From Nitrosospira lacus (GTDB lineage Bacteria; Pseudomonadota; Gammaproteobacteria; Burkholderiales; Nitrosomonadaceae): a stretch of 64,000 bases of DNA. The position numbers and the translations under genes were made by a program. Below the pieces are notes generated by a model. The model was not told the DNA's origin. It ran no database searches and saw nothing but the letters and a program-made list of their open reading frames with translations. Location of the stretch: assembly GCF_000355765.4 (NCBI RefSeq), contig NZ_CP021106.3:1583137-1647136 (forward strand), read 5' to 3'. Positions 9,229 to 15,024 of the stretch are shown here, piece by piece. Within the stretch, counting starts at the first letter, position 1. Each line of letters begins with the position of its first letter.

Positions 9229-9299
9229 CGTCGCTTAAAGGCCCTCCTGCCGCCCCACGGTCTTAATCGCTTTACTCATTCCATACCGGAATTGCATAA

Positions 9300-9388
9300 T
9301 GTGAGTCTCGCCTTCCGAGTGAGTGCGTCTTGCTACCCTGCACCCCCCAGAACTGCGTACACCGCCCCGTCCAACTGCCGGATTCAGG
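9300..9388 (+). repeat. Right-end remnant of the CCGGTAGTTG element family
   Basis: The right end CCAACTGCCGGATTCAGG (9371-9388) plus the preceding CCCCGT and GTACAC blocks match the right part of the full copy at 34988-35285, and GTGAGTCTCGCCTTCCGAGTGAG (9301-9323) matches the inner hairpin of the copy at 56977-57091. No left end is visible; a possible ATTA follows the right end. Frames across it are not considered genes. Confidence 0.6.
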
Positions 9389-9535
9389 ATTATCCTTTTC
9401 AGCACATGACCGGTGCGGAATTTCCCGCTGGAACCGGTATTTGCGGGTACCGTCCCTTCCATTACCCGTCTTGGCATATCCCCGGGAAGCCTGATATCTT
9501 TCAGGGACGCGTGGATAAATTACCTGGAAAACCCC

Positions 9536-9564
9536 TTGTCACCTCCATCCGCCTTGTGTATTCT
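9536..9564 (+). promoter_or_regulatory. Candidate sigma-70 promoter of the RiPP cluster
   Basis: TTGTCA, a 17-bp spacer and TATTCT, about 86 bases upstream of the precursor start codon. It is the best -35/-10 match in the 460-base interval before the cluster. Confidence 0.45.
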
Positions 9565-9649
9565 TAACCAGTATATATTCAGATTGGGTTTTTACGGATT
9601 GGCCTCAAGGAACTGGAAGTGCTGTCGCATAATCAACTGGAGGATACAC

Positions 9650-9847
9650 ATGAAAACTCGCATCTCGGATAAATTGAATCAGTTGCATGCCGATTTCAAG
9701 GCAGATACGGCGGCTCTCGAATCGCCCCAGGAATCAGGTCGCCAGGGTTCTCCCGCGGTCGCCAGTTGGACCAATGGACCAGGGTGGGCTGATTGGACCA
9801 AGTATCTGAACCCCGGTGTGTCCACAGCGTCGCGTTCCATTGATTGA
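9650..9847 (+). CDS. RiPP precursor peptide, Trp-rich core
   Basis: A 65-residue peptide with a strong ribosome site (GGAGG, 7 nt before the ATG). The N-terminal half (MKTRISDKLNQLHADFKADT) is a charged, probably helical leader. The core holds four aromatic-X-X triads: W40-T-N42, W46-A-D48, W49-T-K51 and Y52-L-N54, with GPG between the first two, ending in a Ser/Thr-rich tail. Such aromatic-X-X units with Asn, Asp, Lys or Arg third are what cyclophane-forming radical SAM enzymes crosslink (aromatic ring carbon to the beta carbon of the third residue). The adjacent maturase, oxygenase-like and methyltransferase genes fit. There is no Gly-Gly leader-cleavage site and no exporter nearby. The product is unknown. 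Confidence 0.75.
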   Translation: MKTRISDKLNQLHADFKADTAALESPQESGRQGSPAVASWTNGPGWADWTKYLNPGVSTASRSID

Positions 9848-9876
9848 CTGATGGCGGAACGTATGCGTGGTAATAA

Positions 9877-9897
9877 GATGGGGTATCCGGCCCCATC
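9877..9897 (+). other. Intercistronic stem-loop in the RiPP operon
   Basis: GATGGGG-TATCCGG-CCCCATC forms a perfect 7-bp stem 30 bases after the precursor stop. There is no T-run, so it may be a leaky attenuator or an RNA-stabilising hairpin that keeps precursor mRNA in excess over the enzyme mRNA, a common arrangement in RiPP operons. Confidence 0.55.
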
Positions 9898-10046
9898 AGG
9901 GTGGCTGAGAGTCGCTGTCGGAAGCTCTGGTTACACTCTGATTCAAGGCACATGCCGGCTTAGCCTGTGAGGTCGAAGCAAACCGCTCCCTAGTCTCTTG
10001 AACGGCCCGGACCGACGTATCCCGGCGGCTTTCGAGGAGTTTTCTT

Positions 10047-11234
10047 GTGATCAGCGCATCCGGATCGGGCGGGCCTCAGACCAGTCTGGTCGTCATTCAG
10101 GGCACGCCTTTTTGTAATATCAATTGTTCCTATTGCTATCTGGCGCAGCGGGATGACAAATCCCGGATCACTCTGCCCATGATCGACAAGATCGTCGCCC
10201 GGCTAGCCGAATGGAACCGGTTTGCGAGCGAGGTCACCATACTGTGGCACTCGGGCGAACCGCTGGTGCTGGAGCCTGCTTTTTACGCGGCGGCCTTCGA
10301 CAAGCTTTTGACCCTGCAGGCGAACGGCATCAACATATCCCATGCCTTGCAGACCAATGCGACACTTGTCAGCGAAGGGCACTGCCGGGTCTTGAATGAA
10401 TACCAGGTCAGCGTTGGCGTCAGCCTGGATGGTCCGCAAGATATGCATGATGCACATCGCCTCACGCGGGCGGGTACCGGTACCTTTGCGCAAACTATCA
10501 AGGGTATCGAAAGGCTGCGTGCGCACGGGATTTTACCTTCTGCCATTGCGGTGCTATCGAAATACGCGATGCGCCAGCCCCTGCGGTTCTATGAAACGTT
10601 CGAGCAGCTCGGAATACCTTTCGTGGGGCTCAATACCCAGGAAAAGGAGGGTGTGAACCGGGACAGCTTCTTCGATGATCCCGAGGTATCCACGGCCCTT
10701 TACCAATCCTTCCTGCGCGAGATTTTTCGCCTGAGCTTGCGGCGCGGCACGGTTCTCTTTCGGGAACTGGTCACGTTTGCCGATCTGATCCGTTCCGGCC
10801 AATTTTCCGTGGTGAGCTCCGAAGCTACCCTGGGGACCATTCTGTCTTTCACCCACGATGGCCGGTACGGCACTTACTCGCCCGAGCTGCTGGATGTTAC
10901 CCACGCATCCTTTGGTGCTTTCGCCGTGGGGAACGTGCAGGATGATTCCGTCGAGGCGGTGCTGTCATCCCTGGATCGCGGTACGATCGGCCGGCATATC
11001 CAGGCGGGTATTATCCGCTGCCGCAGCGAATGCGACTATTTTTCCATTTGTGGCGGAGGGTCGCCTGCCAACAAGCTGGGTGAGGCGGGGCAGCTCGATA
11101 TCACTGAAACAGCCCACTGCCGGTTCTCGAAAAAACTGGTTCTCGACGTGGTCATGGAACTGCTCGAAGACGCGGCGTTGCGAAGATTGGCGCATAGGGC
11201 GATCGACACCTATACTCGCCATCGCCTCTTATAG
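10047..11234 (+). CDS. Radical SAM/SPASM RiPP maturase, probably cyclophane-forming
   Basis: The 395-residue enzyme starts at a GTG with GAGGAG upstream. C23, C27 and C30 (CNINCSYCY) bind the radical SAM cluster; WHSGEP is the SAM-binding motif. The C-terminal SPASM region has C325, C329, C335 (CRSECDYFSICGGG) and C358, which bind auxiliary 4Fe-4S clusters. The CxxxCxYCY start and CxxC...CGGGSPANK SPASM ending are those of the GrrM/XyeB/FxsB-like maturases that make three-residue cyclophanes. With the W-X-X precursor immediately upstream, crosslinking of those triads is the likely reaction (inference). It lies 17 bases before the oxygenase-like gene in the same operon. Confidence 0.85.
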   Translation: MISASGSGGPQTSLVVIQGTPFCNINCSYCYLAQRDDKSRITLPMIDKIVARLAEWNRFASEVTILWHSGEPLVLEPAFYAAAFDKLLTLQANGINISHALQTNATLVSEGHCRVLNEYQVSVGVSLDGPQDMHDAHRLTRAGTGTFAQTIKGIERLRAHGILPSAIAVLSKYAMRQPLRFYETFEQLGIPFVGLNTQEKEGVNRDSFFDDPEVSTALYQSFLREIFRLSLRRGTVLFRELVTFADLIRSGQFSVVSSEATLGTILSFTHDGRYGTYSPELLDVTHASFGAFAVGNVQDDSVEAVLSSLDRGTIGRHIQAGIIRCRSECDYFSICGGGSPANKLGEAGQLDITETAHCRFSKKLVLDVVMELLEDAALRRLAHRAIDTYTRHRLL

Positions 11235-11251
11235 CAGCCTGGCGGTTTAAA

Positions 11252-12217
11252 ATGATAACGTTGATGCCCGCTCTTCATCTCCCGGATTCCATCGATACTG
11301 GATCGGATTCGCGGCGGCTACCCGGCATTGCGCCGTTTTCCCGGTTGACGGCATTTCCCGTGTGCGCGCGCCGCTTCAGCTGCGGTGTTGTCGCGGCGGA
11401 CCGTATCCAGGTGAGCGAGGGCACGGTCCCGGCGTGGATGGGAGAAGCTGACGATGGCGCATATGCTTCCGGCGCCATCCTGCCGGCTCAGCCATGGCGC
11501 GCGCTAAGACCGGCCGAGGTGACGATGCTGACGCAAGGAGCCGGTAGCGCACGCTCAGCCGCCCTTGATGTGGTCAGGCTGCCCGAGTTCCTCAGCCGTC
11601 AGGGACGAAAGTTGTTTCGGCGGTTAAAGTTCTGCACGGATGAATCCCAATTTGCAGGCGCTTTGGATCGCGCGGACTATTCACACCTGCTAGGCGAGCT
11701 TGGTCAATTTGCCGCGGGGTGCGGCGGCGTACGAGGATCCCCGCTGGTTCGCATCAGCCGGCCCAATTCACGGGTACTGACGCAGCGGCGGGACGGGTGC
11801 CGTATCGGGCTGCATGTGGATGATTGGTTTGCTCGTGATGGGGATGATCGTGCCTCGCTGCCGGGGCGGCTTTGCATCAATCTGGGCGAAGAGGTTCGAT
11901 ATCTACTGATGCTGAACCTGCCGCTGACGGTTCTCCATTCAAACCTGCCAGCCAACCTGGCAACGGCGAATATGAATCTGAGCGGGACGCCGCTGGCGCG
12001 TTTTTTCATGACCCGCTTTCCGCGCTATCCGGTATTGAAGATTGCCATTGAACCCGGCGAAGGCTATGTGCTTGCTAGCGAGAATATAATCCATGACGGG
12101 AGTACCGAGGGCACTCAAAATTGGGATATTGCGATCCACTTTCTAGGGAACTTCGGTTTGCCGGACCGCACCGGGATACATCCAACGCGCAAAGCGGGAG
12201 GCGGCGCGCCTCGATGA
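11252..12217 (+). CDS. 2OG-Fe(II) oxygenase-like protein of the RiPP cluster
   Basis: A 321-residue soluble protein. H188-V-D190 followed by a distal H281 (NIIHDGST) gives the HxD...H iron facial triad of 2-oxoglutarate dioxygenases; around it are RLCINLGEEVRYLLMLN and GEGYVLASENIIHDG, which fit the double-stranded beta-helix layout. The first 150 residues are not recognisable and may bind the leader peptide. Likely role: hydroxylation or further oxidation of the crosslinked peptide, but the co-substrate-binding Arg cannot be located with certainty. The last 4 bp overlap the next start (ATGA), showing coupling to the methyltransferase. Confidence 0.6.
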   Translation: MITLMPALHLPDSIDTGSDSRRLPGIAPFSRLTAFPVCARRFSCGVVAADRIQVSEGTVPAWMGEADDGAYASGAILPAQPWRALRPAEVTMLTQGAGSARSAALDVVRLPEFLSRQGRKLFRRLKFCTDESQFAGALDRADYSHLLGELGQFAAGCGGVRGSPLVRISRPNSRVLTQRRDGCRIGLHVDDWFARDGDDRASLPGRLCINLGEEVRYLLMLNLPLTVLHSNLPANLATANMNLSGTPLARFFMTRFPRYPVLKIAIEPGEGYVLASENIIHDGSTEGTQNWDIAIHFLGNFGLPDRTGIHPTRKAGGGAPR

Positions 12218-13020
12218 CCAGCGATGCCGATGCGGAGTATGACCTCGTACTCATCGGGATGGGTATCCGTGGCGTGGCTCATCTGACGCTCGAGGCGATA
12301 GGGTTTCTGAACCGGTGTCGACAGGGATATGTGGTCGGGCTCAGCCAGGAGGAAGTCGACGGTTTCGTACGGATGCTTCACGAAACACTTGCCGGCGCGG
12401 CGAATATACCTCCTCTGGAGTCCCTGGGCCGTGCTTACCAGCTTGACCGGAACCGGGCGCTGAATTACCGCGATGCCGCACGCATCATCCTCGATGCGCT
12501 CGGTCGCGGGGTACCTGTTGCTTATCTCACACCTGGCAACCCGATGATTTTCGACAGCGTCAGTCAGCTTCTCCTTGAAGAGGCAAGCCTGCAGGGTTAT
12601 CGCGTGCGCATCGCATCCGGCATTTCCAGCCTGGATACCATTCTGGTTGATCTGCAGGTTGAAATGGCGCCCGGCATGCAGGTTTATGATGCGAGTTGGG
12701 CGGTTGCCGGACACGCGCGGCTCGATACCCGATTTGCATGTCTGCTCCTGCAAAGCAGTGTGCTGCTAACCCGTTGGCCAACGGTGGATAAGCCTGCGCG
12801 GCAAATGGCAATTGATACGCTGAAACACTATCTCTTGCATTTCTACCCGGGCGATCACCAGCTCGCGCTGGTTCGCTCAGGCTATCGATGGCTGGATTGC
12901 GCAACGATTCTGTGGCAGCCAATCGATGAGCTGGGAGGGGAGCTATTCGAGGATTACCTGGGTTGCTCCATCTGGCTGCCTCCCCTTCATCAAATTGAAC
13001 TGAACTCCGCGTTGCCATGA
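12214..13020 (+). CDS. Borosin-type peptide backbone N-methyltransferase (split form)
   Basis: A 268-residue member of the tetrapyrrole-methylase (PF00590) superfamily, started at the ATG of the ATGA overlap with the oxygenase-like gene. LVLIGMGIRGVAHLTLEA is the SAM-fold start. Y75, R81 and Y85 keep the +6/+10 spacing of the catalytic Tyr66/Arg72/Tyr76 of the fungal borosin enzyme OphMA as I remember it. The later segments TPGNPMIFDSVSQ, GYRVRIASGISSLD and YPGDHQLALV are collinear with OphMA. Borosin enzymes methylate backbone amides of their own C-terminus or, in split bacterial systems, of a separate peptide. No substrate is fused here, so the 9650 peptide is the candidate. A small-molecule (cobalt/porphyrin) methylase is less likely. 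Confidence 0.72.
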   Translation: MTSDADAEYDLVLIGMGIRGVAHLTLEAIGFLNRCRQGYVVGLSQEEVDGFVRMLHETLAGAANIPPLESLGRAYQLDRNRALNYRDAARIILDALGRGVPVAYLTPGNPMIFDSVSQLLLEEASLQGYRVRIASGISSLDTILVDLQVEMAPGMQVYDASWAVAGHARLDTRFACLLLQSSVLLTRWPTVDKPARQMAIDTLKHYLLHFYPGDHQLALVRSGYRWLDCATILWQPIDELGGELFEDYLGCSIWLPPLHQIELNSALP

Positions 13021-13148
13021 GCCCATTTGACCAAACTGGTATTCTCCCGGTTTTCTGGACAACTTATCGCAAAGGTAAATGAGTCGATACGCTGCTCCAG
13101 CTCATCCCGAAACACGAGCTGGTCAGTTTCCGGGTTTTTGTAATACAT
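12990..13148 (-). CDS. Small hypothetical protein downstream of mnmC
   Basis: A 52-residue frame starting MYYKNPETDQLVFRDELEQR, placed directly after the mnmC stop on the same strand and overlapping the methyltransferase 3' end antisense by 31 bases. A TTG eight codons upstream with AAGGA before it could be the real start. The composition is protein-like, with one Cys and no membrane segment. I know no family, and it could be a spurious frame. Confidence 0.3.
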   Translation of the reverse strand: MYYKNPETDQLVFRDELEQRIDSFTFAISCPENRENTSLVKWAHGNAEFSSI

Positions 13149-13176
13149 GTTGTGTGTACTCTCTTCGTTCAAATCC

Positions 13177-15024
13177 TTAAGACCTCATACGGCCGATGAG
13201 CTTTCTTGCGGGAGACAGTGCATTGACTACAGATGCCGGCAAGGGCGGCAATTGTCCGCACGCGGCCGCGGCGATCAGCTCTCCGGAGAGTCCGGCCGTG
13301 ATAAGGCCGCGGGTGCCGTGACCCAGACTGGTATATAACCCGGGCAACGATTCGCCTACCAGCGGCATGGCACCGGGGACAGAAGCTCTCACCGCCGCCC
13401 GCCCGCCCAGCCGTCCGATATCCAGCGAATCAATATTCATCGCGCTGGCGAGTGCGGGAGATATTTCCCTCAGCCTGGATAAATTCTCGACATGATCGGC
13501 CGCACGTAAATCGATCGCTTCGTCGTTAAAACCATGCGTTGCTCCTATCACATGCATCCCCGCGACCGATGGAGCGAGATAGCCGCCGGCACACACGATC
13601 GCCCGCAGATTTTCGCTATAGGGTGTAGCGGGCACTAGAGTGATCTGCCCGCGCACAGGGGTCAGCGGGAGATCTGCCAATGGCGCAAATGATTTTACCT
13701 GGTATCCGGTGCAAGCCACCACCAGCTGGGTCTCATGGGACCATGTCTGCCCGCGCTGGTCTTTCCCCTCCACGCGCCAGCCAGCGTTTGCCACCGTCAA
13801 GGATTCCACGCGATGGCCGGTGCGCTTCGTAATGGCCGGGCTCGCCGCAAGTTCCGCACAGAATCGTGCCGGAGCTACCCAGCCGCCGACGGGAAACCAC
13901 AAGCCGCCATATGCCAATTCGATACCGGCCAGGCTGGACGCTTCAGCCGCATCGACATATTGCAGTATATGCGGCGGCCAACGGAGTGCCGCCAGCTTGT
14001 CGATTCGTTTTGATTCTTCCGCGGAAAAGGCCAGTTGCAGTTCTCCGCATTCCGCCCGGACGATGCCGTCTATGGGCAGTCTCTGGTCCAGCAAGGCCAG
14101 CGCATGCCCATAGGAGGCCAGCACGAAGCGTTGCAGCAGGTTCAGGCCCGCGCTCAAGCGGGCGTGCAGTATGCCGTGTGAATTGCCCGACGCCGCTGCG
14201 GCCAACGCCGGCGCATGTTCGATGAGCGTAACGGACGTCCCGCGCAGTGCCAATGCCGATGCCACGGCACACCCGGCCACGCCCCCGCCGATCACGACCG
14301 CCGTTGCGGGACTGGAGCGCGTGGATTGCATGAGTGGTGAACCGGGAAGGCTGCCTCGCAGCATTTCGCGTTTGCGGCCGAAACCGGGCCACTTGCTTAC
14401 CTGAAACCCCGCTTGCTCCAGTCCATGCCGTACCCGGCCGGCGCAGGTATAGGTGGCGAATGTGGCACCAGGGCGGGATGCCTGTACGATATGTTCGAAT
14501 ACCGGTTGCGTCCACATTTCCGGATTGCGCGCCGGTGAAAAGCCATCAAGAAACCACGCGTCGATGCCGTTATGGATTTCAGACAGCGTCTCGGCCACGT
14601 CGCCTATCGCCAGCGTAAGGCGTACCCGGCCATGGCCGAAGCTCCATCGATTCCAGCCCGGTACGCGGCGCGGCCAGCGTGCGATGAGATCATCGGCATA
14701 TCGCCGCAACTCTGGCCACAATGCCAAGGCATCGGCCAGTTCCCGCTCGGCGAGTGGATAGTTTTCGACGCTGAAAAAATCCAGGCTGGCGCGGGATGAG
14801 GCAATTTCATCGAACAGCTGCCATGCGCACAGGAAGCTCAGCCCGGTGCCAAATCCCGTCTCGCCGATGGCAAATGCATCGCCAGTTGCCAAGGACGCAA
14901 AACGCCCGGAGAGATGATTGCCTTGCAGAAACACATGGCGTTTCTCCGCCAGTCCGGAATCCCTGGAGAAGTAGATGTCACCGAAGCGGCGCGAGAATGG
15001 TTGGCCATTCTGCCAATCAATCAT
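13177..15024 (-). CDS. mnmC: Bifunctional tRNA U34 modification enzyme MnmC
   Basis: Finishes mnm5(s2)U34 in tRNA wobble positions: the FAD domain removes the carboxymethyl group of cmnm5U, the methyltransferase domain then adds the methyl group. The 615-residue product has both: the MnmD methyltransferase at about 1-235 (GETGFGTGLSFLCAW as SAM motif, WFLDGFSPARNPEMW as its catalytic motif), then the oxidoreductase with the dinucleotide fold VIGGGVAGCAVASALA near residue 250 and a C-terminal GHGTRGL. Length agrees with the fused form known in proteobacteria. It converges on the RiPP cluster and probably has no link to it. Confidence 0.95.
   Translation of the reverse strand: MIDWQNGQPFSRRFGDIYFSRDSGLAEKRHVFLQGNHLSGRFASLATGDAFAIGETGFGTGLSFLCAWQLFDEIASSRASLDFFSVENYPLAERELADALALWPELRRYADDLIARWPRRVPGWNRWSFGHGRVRLTLAIGDVAETLSEIHNGIDAWFLDGFSPARNPEMWTQPVFEHIVQASRPGATFATYTCAGRVRHGLEQAGFQVSKWPGFGRKREMLRGSLPGSPLMQSTRSSPATAVVIGGGVAGCAVASALALRGTSVTLIEHAPALAAAASGNSHGILHARLSAGLNLLQRFVLASYGHALALLDQRLPIDGIVRAECGELQLAFSAEESKRIDKLAALRWPPHILQYVDAAEASSLAGIELAYGGLWFPVGGWVAPARFCAELAASPAITKRTGHRVESLTVANAGWRVEGKDQRGQTWSHETQLVVACTGYQVKSFAPLADLPLTPVRGQITLVPATPYSENLRAIVCAGGYLAPSVAGMHVIGATHGFNDEAIDLRAADHVENLSRLREISPALASAMNIDSLDIGRLGGRAAVRASVPGAMPLVGESLPGLYTSLGHGTRGLITAGLSGELIAAAACGQLPPLPASVVNALSPARKLIGRMRS

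Follow-up and report, generated by a model that had tools for sequence, protein, structure and literature searches.

Can one short ribosomal peptide be both ringed by a cyclophane-type radical S-adenosylmethionine (SAM) maturase and methylated along its backbone by a borosin-type methyltransferase, although these chemistries are mostly assigned to different peptide classes? The question is raised by a locus of Nitrosospira lacus that lies in a stretch of 64,000 nucleotides (contig NZ_CP021106.3, positions 1,583,137 to 1,647,136), referred to here as the window and used for all coordinates. At 9650-13020 (+), four genes lie on one strand in the order given by an earlier sequence-only reading, namely precursor, radical SAM/SPASM enzyme, HxD...H oxygenase and TP-methylase, and the ATGA overlap that it had pointed to is present at 12214-12217, shared by oxygenase stop and methylase start. 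We consider it probable that these genes form one cassette making a hybrid ribosomal peptide with rings, backbone N-methyl groups and a hydroxylation. At the gene level the claims are well supported, and the cassette is real and well delimited; the product chemistry is predicted from sequence. The features are as follows.

9287..13186, no strand assigned: whole cassette; a blastn comparison with 15 same-genus genomes shows the stretch missing from this site in the closest one
9639..9643, + strand: GGAGG, 6 bases upstream of the ATG by reading of the sequence; likely ribosome-binding site of the precursor gene
9650..9847, + strand: precursor peptide gene, 65 amino acids (aa) (P0001), with a relative, P0027, 82% identical
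9650..9763, + strand: predicted leader, residues 1-38, placed by conservation with P0027 and by the first W-x-N position
9764..9802, + strand: predicted core SWTNGPGWADWTK, with W40-T-N42, W46-A-D48 and W49-T-K51; identical in P0027 and of the OscB-substrate motif type (PMC11002830)
9803..9844, + strand: C-terminal tail, likely not part of the product; the P0027 tail looks like the window DNA here read in another frame
10047..11234, + strand: radical SAM/SPASM maturase of the GrrM/OscB family (P0002), GTG start; TIGR04261, conserved cysteines
10113..10136, + strand: CNINCSYC, [4Fe-4S] cysteine motif, from sequence and conservation in 3/3 loci
11252..12217, + strand: predicted 2-oxoglutarate (2OG)-Fe(II)-type oxygenase (P0003), from fold search; no Pfam or NCBIfam family
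11813..11821, + strand: HVD, predicted iron ligands H188 and D190, in 47/47 covering alignment rows
12092..12094, + strand: H281, predicted third iron ligand, in 47/47 covering alignment rows
12214..13020, + strand: borosin-like alpha-N-methyltransferase (P0004), from sequence, predicted fold and active-site residues
12436..12468, + strand: Y75, R81 and Y85, aligned with OphMA Y66/R72/Y76; R81 and Y85 also with SonM R67/Y71

A scan of genome contigs with a profile of the methylase gave two confirmed loci, in Nodularia (L004) and Streptomyces cahuitamycinicus (L005). In Nodularia, the precursor gene comes first and is followed by genes for the radical SAM enzyme, a small protein, the methylase, the oxygenase and a second 2OG-type oxygenase; in S. 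cahuitamycinicus, precursor, radical SAM and methylase share one strand and are followed by a QueC-like gene, with the oxygenase, a GNAT gene and an FGE-type gene on the opposite strand. The set is common to all three close-group methylase loci with readable context, the window included. Relatives of the methylase consistently occurring without the precursor, or a precursor not kept beside the maturase in other genomes, which the sequence-only reading had named as evidence against itself, were not what we found: both other close-clade loci located in genomes have a candidate precursor, a GrrM-type radical SAM and an oxygenase nearby. Recurrence of the same three enzyme families and a candidate precursor in a cyanobacterium and an actinobacterium places the gene arrangement beyond chance.

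The site of the cassette was compared as well. G012 (L145) is the closest of the 15 same-genus genomes compared (MnmC, 84% identity), and blastn places its homology to window positions 9286 and 13187 only 41 bases apart, compared to 3.9 kb in the window. Five further loci of the 15 (L146, L149, L150, L151 and L156) carry both flanks, 0.1-0.9 kb apart, with ∼0.9 kb of other sequence between them in three cases. The 3.9 kb has been gained or lost as one block, and joint function is therefore supported.

Both recurring loci hold additional genes. The small Nodularia gene (L004, 7566-7937) between radical SAM and methylase encodes 123 aa, has no Pfam match and is ParB-like by eye only. The GNAT, FGE-sulfatase-type and QueC-like genes of S. 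cahuitamycinicus (L005, 2345-3778 and 6163-6822) are possible further tailoring genes.

Precursor and cyclophane-type maturase

The match between P0001 and P0027, a sequence from the protein database, extends over 85% of the query. The longest contig is 48,678 both for P0027 and for methylase P0005, which is 93% identical to that of the window, and because these values match, P0027 and P0005 probably share a locus. P0001 and P0027 agree through WADWTK and diverge after it, and the P0027 tail, LAEPRRVRSVASH, reads like a translation of this window DNA in another frame. Because P0027 is frame-shifted just past WADWTK, we place the core end at K51; a tail free of selection, with the core ending at WTK, is the simplest reading of these sequences and a likely one. 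The idea of one 65-residue precursor consequently stands as far as the gene goes and is narrowed for the peptide, in that the last 14 residues are probably not part of the product. From such comparisons we infer the limits of leader and core listed above.

Precursors elsewhere have similar ends. The Streptomyces precursor terminates two residues past WTK (...QWGQWANWASWTKIA) and contains WGQ, WAN, WAS and WTK; that of Nodularia terminates with FGDFDNWGNFSSWR and contains FGD, FDN, WGN and FSS. Aromatic-X-X motifs near the precursor C-terminus, beside a radical SAM gene, are thus a feature of the window (WTN, WAD and WTK), Nodularia and Streptomyces. On a Nostoc plasmid, a precursor adjoining a GrrM gene and an oxygenase gene shows WDN, WND and WGN.

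The radical SAM enzyme had been called cyclophane-type, and family models bear this out. It scores 337 bits against NCBIfam TIGR04261 (GrrM/OscB), for which the curated cut-off is 310, and is the only protein of the genome above that cut-off (one of two matches). Cysteines C23, C27 and C30 of the CxxxCxxC motif, together with C325, C329, C335 and C358 of the SPASM region, are invariant in 3/3 loci. According to PMC11002830, OscB joins C7 of Trp to the C-beta of an i+2 Asn or Asp, and can also join C4 of Phe to Asn. The window core offers W-T-N and W-A-D, matching the OscB residue pairs. We propose that the maturase would close three-residue Trp rings in the core, with Trp-to-C-beta links W40-N42 and W46-D48 expected by the OscB reaction and W49-K51 less sure.

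The oxygenase and its neighbours

The HxD...H assignment of the third gene is upheld by fold search, which returns a 2OG-Fe(II)-type fold, and by conservation of the ligands. All 25 sequences of alignment A2 have H188, D190 and H281, as do 47/47 covering rows of a larger alignment of 56 rows, the other nine being N-terminal fragments that do not reach the ligands. Among candidates for a basic residue that binds 2-oxoglutarate, R216 is likewise invariant (47/47) and R206 is kept in 44/47. The model has a predicted double-stranded beta-helix type fold, and its top Foldseek rows are FIH. At E 0.01, none of the 25 members matches a Pfam or NCBIfam model. By its model, the oxygenase folds like 2OG-Fe(II) dioxygenases and appears to fall outside any named family.

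This family is commoner than the close methylase group. It is present in 20/291 Nodularia-order, 50/297 Streptomycetaceae and 2/61 window-relative genomes, with seed genomes counted in. Beyond the three methylase loci, we considered 43 oxygenase loci: 20 of 21 cyanobacterial places (the one remaining being that of L004 itself), the 19 best of 56 Streptomycetaceae places apart from that of L005, one other same-genus locus (L143) and three further plasmid loci. For the plasmids, four of five records were used; the fifth, H15, nearly duplicates L008, and L007, identical to L036 in length and scores, is the same plasmid and was counted once. A radical SAM gene matching A4, our GrrM-based profile, lies near 32 of the 43 (12/20 cyanobacterial, 18/19 Streptomycetaceae, 1/3 further plasmid loci and L143). 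In the fetched flanks, the methylase is near none of them. Eight of the neighbouring radical SAM proteins, all from outside Streptomycetaceae, were typed with NCBIfam: three pass GrrM/OscB, three score best with YhhB below its cut-off and lie just below the FxsB cut-off, and two are nearest DynA, far below. The reading that fits best makes the oxygenase a general companion of cyclophane-type maturases and the borosin-like methylase a special addition.

In the proposed pathway, the oxygenase would add one or more hydroxylations. Its part could instead be something other than simple hydroxylation, namely desaturation, epimerisation, an extra crosslink or service as a substrate-binding partner of the radical SAM enzyme, and of the alternatives considered here this is the strongest, a real if lesser possibility. 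The enzyme accompanies several kinds of radical SAM maturase, and its structural neighbours in the fold search include OkaE, AsqJ, WelO5 and KanJ, enzymes of varied reaction outcome. Tight coupling of the two activities is also suggested by P0037 and P0040, metagenome open reading frames in which a SPASM-like segment (by eye) is followed by the oxygenase domain in one frame (a fusion, or pieces of one). On the other side, FIH, which heads the Foldseek rows, is an asparaginyl hydroxylase, and the invariant iron ligands argue for catalysis. Hydroxylation remains the outcome we favour.

Several oxygenase loci merit mention in their own right. In the same-genus genome G003 (L143, 5848-7886), the oxygenase gene adjoins a GrrM-like radical SAM gene (361 bits to A4), without a methylase; glycosyltransferase-like and ABC transporter-like genes, named by eye, lie in the vicinity. 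On a Streptomyces plasmid (L009, 3292-10687), GrrM and oxygenase genes have neighbours with the annotations lanthionine synthetase C, lantibiotic dehydratase and thiopeptide-type, a possible further hybrid cluster for ribosomally synthesized and post-translationally modified peptides (RiPPs). A cyanobacterial subgroup (L037, L038, L041-L045 and L050) shows no matching radical SAM gene in the fetched flanks. There the oxygenase lies at ∼6.0-6.8 kb (3.6-4.5 kb in L050), and in five of the six loci listed, L050 not among them, it has a conserved 220-aa gene on one side and, on the other, a TPR-like gene (by eye) of ∼390-420 aa. The oxygenase family may be active outside RiPPs too.

The borosin-like methyltransferase and rival readings

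By sequence, predicted fold and active-site residues, the methylase is borosin-type, as had been proposed. It matches Pfam TP_methylase with 56.5 bits (cut-off 27.8). Borosin enzymes come first in a single-sequence search of the PDB (OphMA 2e-7, SonM 3.5e-6), and a family-profile search gives 7e-31 for OphMA and 7e-26 for SonM, with corrin-type structures at 5e-7 or weaker. For the predicted structure (mean predicted local distance difference test 80.6, predicted template-modelling score 0.65), all 50 Foldseek rows listed are borosin methyltransferases, with template-modelling scores by query of 0.73-0.79. Y75, R81 and Y85 align with Y66, R72 and Y76 of OphMA, a numbering (with Y98) that agrees with PDB mutant names and with the alignment; SonM R67 and Y71 were aligned to R81 and Y85 through a closer homologue, L087. 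R81 and Y85 are invariant in 19/19 A3 sequences, and Y75 is present in at least 90%. Mutation of SonM Y58, R67 or Y71 strongly lowers activity, and Y93F has a mild effect (PMC8429565).

In the window's branch, PVAYLTPGNP takes the place of the FYGHPG found in canonical borosins, and in our tree the canonical-type rows form a fully supported group of 11. The enzyme likely works like a borosin methyltransferase but in an outlying branch. We therefore expect it to add one or more alpha-N-methyl groups to backbone amides of the core. The five-helix borosin-binding domain is absent from the window precursor, the predicted leader of ∼38 residues being too short for it; because there is no room for such a domain, the methyltransferase would recognise either the short leader or the ringed core.

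Assignment to corrin, YabN or other small-molecule methylases was rejected. The best of these NCBIfam models, YabN, scores 40.1 bits where its cut-off is 525; in the profile search, the corrin-type structures lie at least 16 orders of magnitude behind each of the borosin structures; and neither of two corrin-type control sequences has all three key residues (L014 is without Y85, L013 without Y75 and R81).

Related methylases provide some further observations. A cyanobacterial enzyme (L064, 1480-2253; L084, 6816-7589) has a mixed motif, IAYLTYGDP, intermediate between the window branch and canonical borosins, and neither radical SAM nor oxygenase occurs in its fetched flanks. Canonical-type (FYGHPG) borosin methylases are encoded in two other same-genus genomes (L002, 1342-2682; L003, 1210-2040), one of them within an open frame of 446 aa, which could represent a fused borosin. 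P0008 and P0013 are different window-type methylases that both have a longest contig of 9247, and a two-methylase cluster may exist.

How rare is the arrangement? At 10 further borosin-type methylase loci, read with 2.7-7.5 kb of flanking sequence, neither a radical SAM nor an oxygenase gene is nearby, and the same holds for 23 loci when flanks of ∼1.5 kb or less are considered (those 10 included, the window, L078, excluded). Outside the seed genomes, the close methylase group (>300 bits) was found in none of 300 window-order, 297 Streptomycetaceae, 291 Nodularia-order and 364 Streptomyces-class genomes. The protein database adds 22 relatives, as sequences without readable genome context. A conserved genus trait was rejected, the close clade occurring in 0/22 other same-genus genomes (one of them 80% complete), as was a viral origin, with no relative in a scan of viral contigs. 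Plasmid searches with two methylases returned 11 and 14 records, all below 32% identity, and the annotation of the one record opened, a Bradyrhizobium plasmid (L010), has no radical SAM.

Several points weigh against a hybrid peptide made by the whole cassette. The main weakness is this rarity of the close methylase clade, with its context seen in three genomes only. No A4-matching radical SAM lies in the fetched flanks of 8/20 cyanobacterial and 1/19 Streptomycetaceae oxygenase loci, nor of plasmid loci L006 and L008. Within the methylase alignment, many canonical-type rows carry Asn, Thr or Lys in column 75 and P0020 carries Phe, and the weakest relative, P0026, is without Y75 and R81. Midpoint rooting of the tree turns the window's methylase family into a grade around the long corrin branch, and we therefore claim no clade apart from borosins. 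Finally, the tyrosine of OphMA Y98 and SonM Y93 is absent, P0004 having P107 at that position, inside its PVAYLTPGNP stretch. Such a cofactor-side tyrosine is common among borosins, not defining.

This last point, like the replacement of FYGHPG by LTPGNP, also fits an enzyme that uses the borosin scaffold to modify the ringed peptide off its backbone, at an indole nitrogen, a side chain or a terminus. The core, too, is rich in Trp, Asp, Asn and Lys, whereas those of tested borosins are primarily hydrophobic (PMC11285071). We nevertheless regard off-backbone methylation as unlikely: Y75, R81 and Y85 are kept, and their equivalents orient the amide in OphMA and SonM, while loss of the cofactor-side tyrosine in SonM Y93F was only mildly felt (PMC8429565). 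The two remaining alternatives are highly improbable. That the methylase is a chance neighbour, a small-molecule TP-methylase unrelated to the peptide, would suit its rarity and its absence from 43/43 other oxygenase loci, but a cyanobacterium and an actinobacterium have the same set, the genes overlap at ATGA, the whole block is missing together in a same-genus genome and the nearest PDB relatives are peptide methyltransferases. And although the P0001 and P0027 tails do differ by reading frame, a decaying cassette whose broken precursor yields no product is hard to credit when both retain an intact leader and intact motifs, the Streptomyces precursor stops two residues past WTK (so that the tail is probably dispensable) and all three enzymes are open with their motifs kept.

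Known systems, wider meaning and host

The predicted product of the cassette is a Trp-Asn/Trp-Asp cyclophane peptide, backbone N-methylated and hydroxylated. A broader proposal, to which we give about even weight, is that a hybrid RiPP class of N-methylated, hydroxylated triceptides exists: deep-branching borosin-type methyltransferases, lacking binding domain and cofactor-side tyrosine, would methylate amides of, or next to, strained Trp-Asn/Asp cyclophanes, and the 2OG-type oxygenase family would provide tailoring alongside cyclophane radical SAM enzymes in general.

Each component has a known counterpart. With the triceptides (OscB/GrrM), the cassette shares the NCBIfam radical SAM/SPASM subfamily and a precursor gene just upstream with W-x-N and W-x-D near the C-terminus; it differs in adding a borosin-like methyltransferase and an unclassified oxygenase, and in a precursor that no NCBIfam model matches. 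With split borosins (SonM/SonA, type IV), it shares a methyltransferase separate from its precursor, homologous and with the Tyr/Arg/Tyr positions; unlike them, it has the PVAYLTPGNP branch, a Trp/Asn/Asp-rich core and a radical SAM enzyme of a cyclophane family. Borosin types 0-X, plus an added XI, have been sorted into four classes, and class 4, with methyltransferase and core separate and no borosin-binding domain, is the arrangement closest to that of the window (PMC11395268). The oxygenase resembles 2OG-Fe(II) dioxygenases such as FIH, KdoO and OkaE in its HxD...H ligands and predicted double-stranded beta-helix type fold, but its family matches no Pfam or NCBIfam model and is often found beside radical SAM maturases. 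In the pythonamide pathway (EreM/EreI), backbone N-methylation and an oxygenase likewise meet in one RiPP pathway; however, EreM is FkbM-like, from an unrelated methyltransferase family, the precursor is a proteusin and the available text mentions no cyclophane (PMC11285071).

As for the combination itself, no description was found in the borosin, radical SAM and cyclophane literature, of which coverage was partial, two key borosin surveys lying outside it. In the portions available, the terms 'radical' and 'cyclophane' are absent from the main text of PMC11395268, 'cyclophane' is absent from PMC11285071, PMC10885120 has 'borosin' and 'cyclophane' in its reference list alone, and PMC8429565 has 'radical SAM' only among its references.

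Backbone N-methylation and side-chain rings are much-used routes to stable, cell-permeable peptides. A 3.4-kb cassette would combine both, plus an oxidation, on one short gene-encoded peptide, joining two drug-relevant modifications, each of a known kind, and offering a test bed for pairing enzymes. The cassette also prompts one to ask how a borosin-type methyltransferase locates its substrate when no binding domain is present. In addition, it brings to light an oxygenase family that is so far unclassified and that accompanies radical SAM maturases in cyanobacteria, Streptomycetaceae and the window's genus.

The host genome measures 3.26 Mb in one contig and contains three matches to PF02461 (ammonia monooxygenase), with identical scores, starting at G000:C1:575155, 1402677 and 3259106. 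These matches suggest that the bacterium carrying the cassette is an ammonia oxidiser.

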